From Prochlorococcus marinus str. MIT 0919 (GTDB taxonomy: Bacteria > Cyanobacteriota > Cyanobacteriia > PCC-6307 > Cyanobiaceae): a DNA stretch of 64,000 nucleotides. The notes below the pieces were generated by a model. It was not told where the DNA came from. It saw nothing but the letters and a program-made list of their open reading frames with translations, and did no database searches. Location: positions 248,001-312,000 of the forward strand of contig NZ_CP114779.1 of the NCBI RefSeq assembly GCF_027359375.1, in the 5' to 3' direction. Position 1 is the first letter of the stretch, and each line of letters begins with the position of its first letter. Shown here in pieces: positions 47,629-52,016 of the stretch. Made by a program: the position numbers and the translations under genes.

Positions 47629-48951
47629 TCATCCTAATACCTTAAGAGCCTCAAAGCTGATTTTGTCACTCTTTAGTTCTGAACTTGAACATTTTAGTTC
47701 TAGTTTTGTGCCTAATACAGCATTTTGACAGCCATCTAGTTTACAAGCGATATCAATTTCCAATTCACTAAAGTAGATAAGGGCAATATTTAATGGTTTA
47801 TGAAGCCATCTTAAAAATATTGCTGCCCAACAAATTTTATTATTATTCAGAAACCATTTGTTTGCAATGGTTCTATTATTATCCCTTACACGCTGAATTA
47901 TCTGTCTATTTTTTACTGTATAATTATTAATTTTATTATTTATAATATCTTGGTTCATCAATTTTGTAGACTTTAAGTCATTTATTAATTGAAAGTGTAC
48001 TATAATATCTATATATCTTCTTAAAGGTGAAGTTGCTTGTACATATTCGTCAAGACCTAAAGAATGATGCTTTTCAGCAATTGAAGATATATAAGATTTA
48101 GAAAGTGTTTGCTTTGTAATAAAGTTTATTACATGCTTATTATTCCCAGTATAATAGGAATCGTTATTTTTATTTATACCTCCTTGTACTCTAAAGGGAA
48201 TACTAATGTTATTTGATCTACAATATTTAGCGATTATTGTACCAAATAAAATCATAGACTCACTTATAAGCTTCCTAGACTCTGTAGGCTCGATAATTTC
48301 GTGTGTTATCTTCTCACCTTCTAATATAAATTTTCCTTGTGGCTCTTCAATAATTATAGCTCCATTTCTTAATCTCCAGTTTCGTCTTCTCTTTAGAATT
48401 TCCTTAAATTTGACTAGGGCTAATTCTTCTTTTGGTTGTATATCTAGTATTTCATCTGCGTCATCATAACTTAGTTTAAGGCTTGGCTTTATTATAGTTC
48501 TAAAGATTCCACTATTATTAATGCTGCCATCACTATTTAAATCAGCAAATACGCTAATAGCATAAGAGATTCTATCTTTTTTTAGAGATAACAAATCACT
48601 TATTATTTCATATGGCATCATGTAAATGGTTTCTGTTGCCAAATAAGTACTTGCAGCTCTTTCCTCTGCATATACATCTAATTGACTTGCTATATCGAAA
48701 TATTCACAGGGACTTGTTATATGAACCCATAACCTATAACTATTGTCTAAATATTCTAACGAAATAGCATCATCAATTTCTTTGCTTCTTATATCATCAA
48801 TAGTGTATGTTTTTAAACTTGTTAGGTCTTTCAGGCTATAATCAATCTGTTCTAGACTCTTATTCTTTATATCCTTAATTTGTTCTACTAGAGATTCATT
48901 AGAGTTCTTCTGTTTCATTGCAACAGGACTATCTGTAACTTGTAATTTCAA
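47629..48951 (-). CDS. Compact RNB-family exoribonuclease (intact catalytic site)
   Basis: A 440-aa RNase II-type enzyme with the catalytic block TIDDIRSKEIDDAISLEYL (Asp near residues 52, 60 and 61) and the later ATSPLRRYIDIIVHFQLI (residues 306-322), both canonical. The N-terminal cold-shock domains are absent and the C-terminus is short, without a recognisable S1 domain. The start is a TTG at 48951 in the gap after rpsR; an ATG at 48918 is an alternative that would still keep the catalytic block. It lies 16 bp downstream of rpsR on the same strand. Another RNB gene with a broken site lies at 31854-34124. Confidence 0.88.
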   Translation of the reverse strand: MKLQVTDSPVAMKQKNSNESLVEQIKDIKNKSLEQIDYSLKDLTSLKTYTIDDIRSKEIDDAISLEYLDNSYRLWVHITSPCEYFDIASQLDVYAEERAASTYLATETIYMMPYEIISDLLSLKKDRISYAISVFADLNSDGSINNSGIFRTIIKPSLKLSYDDADEILDIQPKEELALVKFKEILKRRRNWRLRNGAIIIEEPQGKFILEGEKITHEIIEPTESRKLISESMILFGTIIAKYCRSNNISIPFRVQGGINKNNDSYYTGNNKHVINFITKQTLSKSYISSIAEKHHSLGLDEYVQATSPLRRYIDIIVHFQLINDLKSTKLMNQDIINNKINNYTVKNRQIIQRVRDNNRTIANKWFLNNNKICWAAIFLRWLHKPLNIALIYFSELEIDIACKLDGCQNAVLGTKLELKCSSSELKSDKISFEALKVLG

Positions 48952-48967
48952 AAATTAAAAGTTCATA

Positions 48968-49189
48968 TCAGCCTTCTGGGTTAACAAAAGGTAGTAATGC
49001 GACTATCCTAGCCCTCTTAACGGCGAGTGTTAAATCACGTTGTTGCTTTGAGGTGAGACCTGTCATTCGTCTAGGGAGAATCTTTCCACGTTCCGTTATG
49101 AATTTTTTCAAGGTTTCTACGTCCTTATAATCTATTGGATCCCCTGGCTTGATTGGAGAAAGTTTCTTTTTAAAGACTGAATTAGGCAT
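48968..49189 (-). CDS. rpsR: 30S ribosomal protein bS18
   Basis: A 73-aa ribosomal protein with the S18 core [37 protein letters not shown] and [14 protein letters not shown]. It is standard in length and lies upstream of the compact RNB gene. An apparent rpmG relic lies directly upstream (49228-49406), where rpmG is commonly found in related genomes. Confidence 0.97.
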
Positions 49190-49227
49190 AATTAATGTTT
49201 TTCAAGTTTTTAGCTTTACAAACAAGC

Positions 49228-49406
49228 CTAAAGTGAAGTGGTTTGTTTGAAATCTGGAAAGAACTTTTTGAACAACTTGTCAGCTGCAATAGTCCTGTTC
49301 TTTAGTTTGGCGTAGAATGGTACACCTCATGAACGTTTAGATCTATTCTAACGCCTTTCGATGCACTCTTTGTTAATGGATGCCGATGGACCTTATTTGC
49401 GGTCAT
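49228..49406 (-). pseudogene. rpmG: Decayed rpmG (50S ribosomal protein bL33)
   Basis: Directly upstream of rpsR, the minus strand carries L33-like sequence in two frames. Frame one (49406-49302) starts at ATG 49406 and includes SKGVRIDLNVHE, which matches the KGVRIVITLE start of L33. The second frame (49326-49228) reads GVPFYAKLKNRTIAADKL then FKKFFPDFKQ, which lines up with GVSRYTTxKNRRNTTxRL then KKFCPHLNK of L33, with G, V, Y, K, N, R at matching spacing. A frameshift and an internal deletion of about 14 codons separate them. No intact L33 is seen in the window. It is judged a pseudogene from the match and its position. Confidence 0.65.
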
Positions 49407-49520
49407 GCGAATTTAAGGTCGCTTTAGATATAAGCTAACAAGCCATGACTTTACAAGCTATTTGTAATTTCAAAAAAATTACTGCTTAAAAGTAGGATCT
49501 ATGCCATACATATCTAGACA

Positions 49521-52016
49521 ATGAAGGTATCTCTCTCCTGGTTAAAAGAACTTGTTAGTACCGATTTTAATGTCGAGCAAATAGCAGAATCGCTTTCTAT
49601 AGCTGGGTTTGAAGTCGAAGATATAACAGATTTAGCACAAGGTTTTGAACATATTGTTATAGGCCGAATTGAAGAAATTAGCAACCACCCGAACGCTAAT
49701 AAACTTAAGGTTTGCAAAGTACTTGTAGCTGGAGAACAAATTCTTCAAATCGTCTGTGGCGCTTCAAATGTTAGAGAGGGAATACATGTATTAGTAGCTA
49801 GAGAAGGTGCGTTCCTTCCTAAGCTTGGAATTAAAATAAAGTCAAGTGAACTTAGAGGAATACAAAGTGAAGGGATGATTTGTTCCTTGGACGAATTAGG
49901 TCTTCAATCTAAATGTGATGGGATTGCGATAATTGAGGAAATCTTATCTGAGACTCCTCTTTTAACTGATGACCCTTCTAAGTTGCTTGGTTTAAATGAC
50001 GTTGTACTCGACTTCGCTATTACAGCTAATAGACCAGATGGAATGTCTATGCTTGGTATAGCAAGAGAATTATCTGCTATCACAGGTTCTTCCTTGCAAT
50101 GTCCCCATATAAAAGATCAGGGCGAACTCAAGTTATTCAAGCCAGATGTTATTGACCAAAGGATTATTTCCTCTAATGAGATATACACAATAAATTATAT
50201 TGAAGGAGTAAATGGTAGACTTTCATCTCCTAGTTGGTTGAAAGATAGATTAAAAAATGCTGGAATAAATAGCATTAATGCTGTCATAGATATAACTAAC
50301 TACGTTATGGTCGAGTATGGTCAGCCATTGCATGCCTTTGATGCTGATTTGTTGAATAAACTATTAGGAAGAAAAGCTATAAGTTCAGACTTTGGTATCA
50401 GAATGGCCAAAAATAACGAAGAATTTTTAACATTAGACGGCAACAAGCATTTGTTATCAGATAAGTCTCCTGTTATAACTTGCGGGGGAATACCTATCGC
50501 AATAGCTGGAATTAGTGGAGGATTGAATAGTGGCGTTAACCTAAACACAAAAAATATTTGGTTAGAGGCAGCAGTTTTTACTTCGCCCTCTATTAGGATT
50601 TCATCTAGAGATATAGGTATTCGAACAGAATCTAGTAGCCGTTATGAAAAGGGAATTTCACCCTTGTTAACAATTGAAGCTAGTAATAGAGCTATAGATT
50701 TGTTAGATAAGGTTTTTAAATGTAAACTTTGCAGTAGGTGGACTACAAATGAATTTACATCAAAAATAAAAAGTATTAAATTACGTCGGAATCGATTACA
50801 GGAACTATTAGGTCTGATTAAAGATAAACCACAATCTAAAAGTAATTCTGATAACAATGATCAATCTTTACTAATTTACAATTCTAAAAGGAAACTTCAT
50901 GATCATGAAATAACTGATTCATTAAAGCTATTAGGATGTATTGTTTCTACAAATGAAGATGGTTGGGATGTAAAAGTTCCTCCTAATAGATGTTTTGATT
51001 TAACCCGAGAAATTGATTTAGTTGAAGAGGTCGCAAGACTTGTTGGTTATGACAAATTTGATGTCAACCTTCCAGAACCACTATTACCTGGTGGCTTAAC
51101 AGCTAATCAGAAAGTTTTAAGACTGATTTCCAATAGCTTATCCAACCTTGGCTTTTATGAAGTAGTCACATATTCACTGGTTGGAGCTAAAAAGAATGAG
51201 ACTCTTATTCCTATATCAAATCCATTGTTAGCAGAAACAAGTCACTTACGATTAAATTTATGGGAAGAGCACTTACTTATATCTAAAAGAAATATCCATG
51301 CAGGAAGAGACTCTTGTTGGATATATGAAATAGCTAAAATATATATTGAAGAGGATTCTATGATTGTAGAAAAGGATATTTTGAGCGGCCTCTTGACCGG
51401 AGATCAAACTTTAGAGAAATGGTCAAGTGGAGGAAAGCAAAAAGAACTAGGGTATTACAAAGCAAGAGGGAAATTATCGCAACTGCTTGAAGGACTCAAG
51501 CTTTCTATAACGGATATTCCCCTAATAAACGATGATAGGCTTCATCCAGGACGTGCCTCTACATTAATTTTGGAAGGTCGCAATCTTGGATGTTTTGGAC
51601 AAATACATCCAAAACTAAGTAAGAAATTAAGCCTGAATAGCAATACTTTTATATTTGATATTGATTTGAAAAAGTTATTGCAAGCGGCAACAAGAAAGAA
51701 TAAATTAAATGTAAGCTTTAAGGAATACCCAACTGTTCCATACATGCAACGCGATATAGCGTGCATAGTCTCTAAAGATTGTGTGTCTTCTAAAATTACG
51801 AAGCACATTCAAAAATTAGGCTCTCCCTTACTCGAGAATGCTGAATTGATAGATAGGTTTGAAAGCGACATCATTGGGGAAGGAAAGGTTAGTTTGGCTT
51901 TTAGGCTTACTTATAGAGATAAAAAGGATACTCTCAAAGAAAAGGATATAAATCCACTACATACAAAAATACAGAATGCATTAACTGATATGTTTGATGC
52001 CGAAATAAGGAAATAG
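49521..52016 (+). CDS. pheT: Phenylalanyl-tRNA synthetase beta subunit
   Basis: PheT is the large subunit of the alpha2beta2 PheRS. Seen: the N-terminal tRNA-binding (EMAP-like) domain with IVIGRIEEISNHPNANKLKV, the B3/4 editing domain, VMVEYGQPLHAFDADLL, the B5 domain, class II core IDLVEEVARLVGYDK, and a C-terminal FDX-ACB domain (YPTVPYMQRDIACIV). The 831-aa length is usual. It is divergent from the rpmG relic; no pheS is in the window. Confidence 0.97.
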   Translation: MKVSLSWLKELVSTDFNVEQIAESLSIAGFEVEDITDLAQGFEHIVIGRIEEISNHPNANKLKVCKVLVAGEQILQIVCGASNVREGIHVLVAREGAFLPKLGIKIKSSELRGIQSEGMICSLDELGLQSKCDGIAIIEEILSETPLLTDDPSKLLGLNDVVLDFAITANRPDGMSMLGIARELSAITGSSLQCPHIKDQGELKLFKPDVIDQRIISSNEIYTINYIEGVNGRLSSPSWLKDRLKNAGINSINAVIDITNYVMVEYGQPLHAFDADLLNKLLGRKAISSDFGIRMAKNNEEFLTLDGNKHLLSDKSPVITCGGIPIAIAGISGGLNSGVNLNTKNIWLEAAVFTSPSIRISSRDIGIRTESSSRYEKGISPLLTIEASNRAIDLLDKVFKCKLCSRWTTNEFTSKIKSIKLRRNRLQELLGLIKDKPQSKSNSDNNDQSLLIYNSKRKLHDHEITDSLKLLGCIVSTNEDGWDVKVPPNRCFDLTREIDLVEEVARLVGYDKFDVNLPEPLLPGGLTANQKVLRLISNSLSNLGFYEVVTYSLVGAKKNETLIPISNPLLAETSHLRLNLWEEHLLISKRNIHAGRDSCWIYEIAKIYIEEDSMIVEKDILSGLLTGDQTLEKWSSGGKQKELGYYKARGKLSQLLEGLKLSITDIPLINDDRLHPGRASTLILEGRNLGCFGQIHPKLSKKLSLNSNTFIFDIDLKKLLQAATRKNKLNVSFKEYPTVPYMQRDIACIVSKDCVSSKITKHIQKLGSPLLENAELIDRFESDIIGEGKVSLAFRLTYRDKKDTLKEKDINPLHTKIQNALTDMFDAEIRK

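Follow-up and report, generated by a model that had tools for sequence, protein, structure and literature searches.

Decay of an rpmG gene upstream of rpsR in Prochlorococcus marinus MIT 0919 and its likely displacement by an ectopic C- bL33 gene

Ribosomal proteins are known to switch between zinc and non-zinc forms, and in streamlined genomes core ribosomal genes are usually taken to be vertically inherited and fixed in place. Makarova, Ponomarev and Koonin reportedly described in 2001 a system of C+ and C- ribosomal protein paralogues marked by recurrent disruption, duplication, loss and transfer, and a study of ribosomal protein S4 is said, going by its title, to concern horizontal transfer of zinc and non-zinc forms.

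Zinc-independent ribosomal proteins termed AltRPs, including L33-2, are placed under Zur control and replace the zinc forms in the excerpted text of one source (PMC5912738), while tycheposons and tRNA-flanked flexible islands are described in the excerpted text of another (PMC10872708). A literature search that covered few subscription papers returned no report of bL33 displacement in picocyanobacteria, and two Prochlorococcus papers in its listing mention rpmG, in the parts available, only as an expressed gene. Here we describe a window of 64,000 nucleotides (G000:C1:248001-312000) from the MIT 0919 genome (G000; 1,716,770 bases, one contig), together with the genomes of relatives.

A broken rpmG between pheT and rpsR

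The minus strand of the window carries a broken rpmG between pheT and rpsR, within a spacer of 331 nt:

49216 to 49406, minus strand: decayed in-place rpmG (bL33, probably of the C+ type), from protein search, translation and spacer alignments; the outer limits 49216 and 49406 are drawn from a MAFFT alignment with C+ genes
48968 to 49189, minus strand: rpsR (bS18), 73 aa, intact, from the ORF list
49521 to 52016, plus strand: a gene that we take to be pheT, the divergent neighbour that fixes the synteny, from the ORF list
47629 to 48951 (longest ORF), minus strand: presumably an RNB-type exoribonuclease gene, downstream of rpsR, from the ORF list
49449 to 49459, minus strand: promoter-like AGCTTGTAAAG box upstream of the dead rpmG, putative in function, from a spacer alignment by eye
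49219 to 49249, minus strand: possible hairpin CAAACAA..TTGTTTG at the 3' end of the dead rpmG, 60 nt before rpsR, weak in a hairpin scan (p about 0.1 for the G000 sequence alone)

All 27 rpsR loci compared have the start of pheT upstream, and rpsR was matched in 347 of 400 family genomes among the matches listed. A TTGTAGGAT-like box occupies a promoter-like position upstream of rpmG in other loci, as judged by eye in the spacer alignment.

A genome-wide search with a C+ bL33 query places the broken gene at G000:C1:297237-297392 (window 49392-49237, minus strand; E 5e-5), where the match spans bL33 residues 6-58 and is interrupted in frame by one TGA and one TAG, confirming the decayed rpmG upstream of rpsR that a preliminary description of this DNA had proposed. 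Translated in one frame with a single missing codon, the remnant reads GPSASINKECIERR*NRSKRS*GVPFYAKLKNRTIAADKLFKKFFPDFKQTT and is colinear with bL33, ECIERR*NRSKRS*GV aligning to ECTECRSNPAKRSPGV and the second part, KNRTIAADKL-FKKFFPDFKQTT, to a 23-residue bL33 stretch. The preliminary description had instead read two partial frames parted by a frameshift and a deletion of about 14 codons. The frameshift survives, near the start of the remnant, where the ATG at 49406 does not share the phase of the frame that matches, but residues 6-58 lie in one frame and the deletion was a misalignment for which one missing codon suffices. A Lys-Gly-Val-Arg-Ile segment (49358-49344) read as the start of the protein falls on residues ~17-22, and we take the likeness as a coincidence.

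No Pfam match to PF00471 was reported at the in-place remnant, which holds no open frame and is matched by protein queries only. As the gene is short and E-values from default tblastn are weak (0.006 to 0.94, the remnant still being the top match), a sequencing error or chance similarity has to be weighed. With sensitive settings the remnant is the top match in the window for seven of seven bL33 queries (E 2e-5 to 0.005), the next best window matches have E 0.42 or worse, and none of 200 dinucleotide shuffles reached the best score of the spacer DNA. Against an error or chance stand also the lesions within about 160 nt (two stops, one missing codon and a shifted start) and the broken copies that other genomes carry at this position, and we consider this the least probable of all the explanations weighed here.

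The C+ form of bL33, a zinc-ribbon protein (...LECTECRSNPA--KRSPGV...), stands in place before rpsR in Synechococcus- and Cyanobium-like genomes and in several low-light Prochlorococcus. The C- form, which in G000 reads ...RSVPSSEKRSPGV...KKFCPELNKMT..., has two extra middle residues and lacks the second CxxC; the types in our locus comparison table were assigned by eye. A third type stands in place in WH7803 and TMED19 (L233 and L289; FCPHDN and FCPYDN), its last cysteine lost by another route. Among the matches listed, bL33 was matched in 358 of 400 family genomes and in 243 of the 251 with completeness of 90% or more and contamination of 5% or less.

By protein score the remnant lies closer to the C+ form (28.9-31.7 bits for three C+ queries vs 24.9-26.6 for four C- queries), and each of the four C- queries requires an extra 2-codon gap against it. 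At the DNA level the best C+ score is 58 and the best C- score 59 (means 44.7 and 38.2), which does not separate the types. Assignment of the remnant to the C+ type is therefore supported but not decisive.

Intact bL33 genes away from rpsR

A whole-genome search recovered a sole intact bL33 in G000, a gene of 65 aa at G000:C1:1247577-1247774 that matches PF00471 with 72.1 bits against a cut-off of 25 (E 4.7e-20). The preliminary description had taken the lineage to be losing L33 unless a second rpmG copy existed elsewhere; the exception applies, and the claim of loss was wrong because the genome keeps this copy. The nearest gene by protein in our set, that of G057, shares 97% of its protein sequence and 84% of its DNA sequence, and the ectopic gene therefore appears constrained, as expected under purifying selection. 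Thus, dead as the in-place gene is, true loss of bL33 from this lineage is very improbable beside an intact, constrained copy. In the ectopic protein the second cysteine pair has changed from CPHC to CPEL and the first from CTEC to CTES, residues by which it classes as a C- paralogue with its zinc-ligand cysteines lost, and the protein is probably zinc-free.

The ectopic gene lies in the order gatB-coaE-argJ-(rpmG + 211-aa gene)-ABC-ssrA-rlmL, in which the names gatB and coaE are our assumption and the 211-aa gene has no Pfam match. In the sister genome G001 the site is empty, argJ lying about 40 nt from the ABC gene with neither inserted gene between them, followed by ssrA-rlmL; the order in G002 is argJ-ssrA-rlmL. 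The tmRNA gene lies 3.0 kb from the ectopic rpmG, which is on its 3' side. No integrase was found near this site (the only integrase match of the genome is at C1:1679680) and the final 12 nt of the tmRNA do not recur in the 11.7 kb downstream, so that the integrase and end repeat by which we would recognise a tRNA-targeting integrative element or tycheposon are both missing here.

Our preferred reading, to which we assign a probability of roughly 0.88, is that the C+ rpmG decayed in place after displacement by an ectopic C- copy. An ancestral zinc-ribbon rpmG would have stood at its ancestral place before rpsR, and the window would contain its corpse. In the G000 lineage a second bL33, of the C- kind, would have entered the genome at another site, near the tmRNA gene and flanked by argJ and the ABC transporter gene. 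With the C- protein serving the ribosome, the C+ gene would have become redundant and free to decay, so that arrival of the C- gene would have come before decay of the C+ gene. The preliminary description was correct about the in-place decay; at this position G001 carries an intact rpmG, although one of the C- kind.

Intact C- rpmG genes away from rpsR were found at 22 or more loci (G000, G018, G094, G066, G093, G043, G014, G041, G059, G027, G061, G040, G017, G023, G042, G088, G128, G200 and G056, and the single-cell records AG-439-M18, AG-409-N21 and AG-432-D11); the contig scan of relatives covered 80 of at least 554. The earlier statement that rpmG usually sits beside rpsR holds for most loci read, with these 22 ectopic loci set against it. 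Both an ectopic C- gene and the rpsR locus were read for 13 genomes, and all 13 have a broken in-place copy (G000, G018, G094, G066, G093, G043, G014, G041, G059, G088, G027, G042 and G128), a count that leaves out G061, G040, G017, G023, G200, G056 and the three single-cell records, whose rpsR locus is absent from the data. Damage ranges in kind: the in-place copy of G128 is frameshifted, while that of G042 is open for 61 codons, scores above the Pfam cut-off and has only its start shifted. No Prochlorococcus-like genome with both forms fully intact was found among the genomes compared. The C- form stands in place in G001, G012, G005, G057, G095, G115, G177, G189 and G150, and an intact C+ form in G003, G013, G053, G033, G054, G015, G028, G004, G074, G134, G085, G108 and G144.

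To the 13 broken spacers we added those of G030 and G029, which have a broken C+ gene in place and no other bL33 found (the genomes are 77% and 64% complete). The best C+ DNA score was reached by none of 200 shuffles in 14 of these 15 spacers; the exception is the remnant of G041, hardly above chance, whose best C+ score was reached by 6 of 200. These comparisons bear on a different account, in which the native gene simply moved, the remnant being an old duplicate of that same C- gene. The near-equal best scores in G000, within one point of each other, and the C- gene in place in the sister G001 would suit it, but the remnant is missing the two codons by which C- genes are longer and is matched better by C+ proteins, and the best C+ DNA score exceeds the best C- score in 13 of the 15 spacers (the exceptions being G000 and G043, the latter slightly higher with C-). 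In the bL33 tree, moreover, the ectopic gene of G000 groups with G057 and not with G001. A simple move is accordingly quite improbable.

Other low-light Prochlorococcus-like genomes show the same displacement of C+ by C-, with the tRNA-Ser(CGA) island as its commonest site (12 of 22 loci). In a species tree built from pheT, rnb, metG and rpsR (rows of more than 500 aligned residues, passed by 44 of 44), the placed genomes with ectopic C- genes group with Prochlorococcus; the one exception, G027, is positioned next to Synechococcus WH7803 with weak support (0.46). In the bL33 tree, which is based on about 65 codons and has low support in places, the C- genes that stand in place in Prochlorococcus lie nested among the ectopic ones. 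The ectopic loci are not independent because they share ancestry, and much of the pattern would follow from vertical descent after an old insertion at tRNA-Ser.

Fourteen of the 22 ectopic loci have rpmG on the 3' side of a tRNA gene or of the tmRNA gene: tRNA-Ser(CGA) in twelve (G018, G094, G066, G093, G043, G014, G059, G061, G017, G128, AG-439-M18 and AG-409-N21; 0.4 to 12.4 kb from rpmG), tRNA-Asn in one (G041; 0.7 kb) and tmRNA in one. At the other eight (G040, G027, G023, G042, G088, G200, G056 and AG-432-D11) no tRNA was found in the available DNA. Downstream, five of the 14 loci repeat the final 12 nt of tRNA-Ser exactly (G043, G014, G059 with two copies, G017 and G128), where base composition predicts 0.0003 or fewer copies in each and 1259 other 12-mers from the same genes gave no copies. 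The position beside tRNA and tmRNA genes suggests tRNA-targeting islands, and we link the loci to tycheposons because of this position, the tRNA-end repeats and the portion of the published description seen (PMC10872708); delivery of the C- rpmG by tRNA-targeting elements would then be plausible. In all five loci rpmG lies beyond the tRNA-end copies and is therefore not inside the element that those copies mark, as if younger inserts had pushed it outward. G017 has the tRNA, a 437-aa tyrosine recombinase frame between tRNA-Ser and rpmG, and the tRNA-end repeat, with rpmG beyond the repeat; it is the one genome of the 16 ectopic genomes searched with an integrase match near the ectopic copy, none being near in the other 15. 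In G066, the frame beside the ectopic rpmG (L120:8241-9248) encodes an integrase arm domain fused to a DUF218 domain. A phage origin of bL33 was considered and dropped: 50,697 phage records gave no match at E<=0.01, and no candidate was confirmed in viral contigs searched with six peptide patterns.

Other arrangements occur in marine Synechococcus, as which we took genus g5 (32 genomes) on the basis of named records that have the same protein. Six of the 32 (G006, G062, G173, G215, G248 and G278) carry a C+ gene in place together with an intact ectopic C- gene of another branch; no tRNA was found in the available DNA of these six ectopic loci. Two genomes, G233 and G206, present the mirror image, with C- in place and a damaged ectopic copy, which has two stops in G233 and in G206 has no internal stop but has lost its recognisable start, the first residues no longer matching. 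The close sisters G115 (C-) and G134 (C+), so placed by the species tree, have spacers closely alike up to the start codon, after which the reading frames differ in type, a pattern that fits recombination at or near rpmG. The Synechococcus ectopic C- genes (L293-L298) are preceded by a common block that contains the repeat GATGAC..GTCATC and the motif TCAGTCCAG. By eye, several ectopic copies (L116, L118-L121, L128 and others) share a TTGTAAGAT-like box ~60 nt upstream, and their leader, which contains a short hairpin and often GCGGAA, is unlike that of the rpsR locus. It looks as if the ectopic gene and its leader had travelled together.

A conserved element at the start of C+ rpmG

An element conserved at the nucleotide level, ACGTCCTT(T)ATGGCNAARAACAAGGGCGTCCGGATCGTNNTCACTCTNGAGTGCACNGAATGCCGGTCC, covers the start of picocyanobacterial C+ rpmG (L065:1444-1551 and the starts of other C+ genes in place); its synonymous sites are far better conserved than the remainder of the gene. 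Codons 4-24, a block picked after looking, are nearly fixed in nucleotides, with a top-codon fraction of 0.90 vs 0.69 for codons 25-64 in 58 distinct in-place C+ genes (complete genes of 192 nt only), a value that shuffled codon positions reach with P 2e-5, uncorrected for relatedness or block choice. The rpsR gene has no such block (0.63 vs 0.61, 50 loci). Hairpins can form in the element around the start codon and beyond it; with the sequence nearly invariant, the structure in alignment A2 shows next to no covariation. By eye, it is present in two family loci and absent from 28 other cyanobacterial loci, and it is kept in Synechococcus in-place C- genes. Autoregulation of the rpmG-rpsR message would be a guess at its function. 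Rfam gave no match in window 48900-49560 at E<=5 or in eight loci at E<=1. A leader shared with another gene was rejected, as RNA model R1 fell below E 0.03 only at rpmG copies (21 genomes, best 150 or fewer candidates each).

A further reading is that the dead rpmG has been retained because its RNA works as a 5' leader of rpsR. Spacers keep their length in 13 broken loci compared (319-395 nt vs 311-355 in intact ones), and hairpins are in excess in 12 decayed spacers, both from -80 to -20 before rpsR (Fisher P 0.0027, one of 15 tests) and around the former start codon (P 0.004); this decayed set omits G042 and G030, whose C+ genes are nearly intact, and includes G067, where rpsR but no bL33 was found (70% complete). 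A hairpin about 53-62 nt before rpsR recurs in several decayed copies, formed from differing sequences. The RNA model matches the dead copies of G066, G094, G027, G093 and G059 with 49.5-67.5 bits and that of G018 with 19.5, and it also matches C- genes weakly through shared coding sequence (16.3 bits for the ectopic gene of G000). Selective retention is weak, however: pooled over 11 genomes, identity of the dead genes to the C+ consensus is 0.557 in the conserved element vs 0.515 in the rest, and we rejected retention of the RNA element on this ground. The element is not recognisable in window 49216-49406, the dead copy of G000 is not matched by the RNA model at E<=5, and Rfam offers no match. 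The 7-bp hairpin near the old start in G000, tried as a compensated helix, was likewise rejected, its 5' arm aligning with a different segment. We consider a retained leader unlikely, though somewhat less so than a simple move of the native gene.

Proposed displacement and known systems

Under the displacement reading, loss of the zinc site would be the benefit of the C- form, and that low ocean zinc favours this form is a guess. More tentatively, and with considerable doubt, we hypothesize that picocyanobacterial islands carry C- bL33 as cargo and that the resident C+ gene then decays, leaving the island with the only copy so that it cannot be lost. Such addiction by core-gene capture might have occurred in several lineages and been reversed by recombination of the C- gene into the rpsR locus.

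Repeated swapping between zinc-ribbon and C- forms, with visible corpses, offers natural replicates for weighing low oceanic zinc, island biology or chance as the driver of ribosomal zinc-site loss. It also cautions that a dead in-place copy does not equal loss of the protein, and that bL33 in concatenated trees needs care.

The case resembles the C+/C- system ascribed to Makarova and colleagues in that C- bL33 replaces C+, with gene loss and probably transfer. It differs in that both steps are visible in close relatives, with a dead C+ gene in place and a C- gene at a new site, and in that in-place swaps and a mirror image occur as well. With the S4 case, as its title has it, the exchange of zinc and non-zinc forms is shared and the protein differs. 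Like the AltRPs, insofar as the excerpted source describes them (PMC5912738), the C- gene encodes a probably zinc-independent bL33 paralogue that would be able to stand in for the zinc form, but the G000 copy is the only intact bL33 and not a conditional spare. The ectopic loci share with tycheposons, in the described portion (PMC10872708), cargo beside tRNA genes, tRNA-end repeats and, in G017, a tyrosine recombinase; unlike them, the G000 ectopic rpmG has no element found around it, and the cargo is a core ribosomal protein gene.
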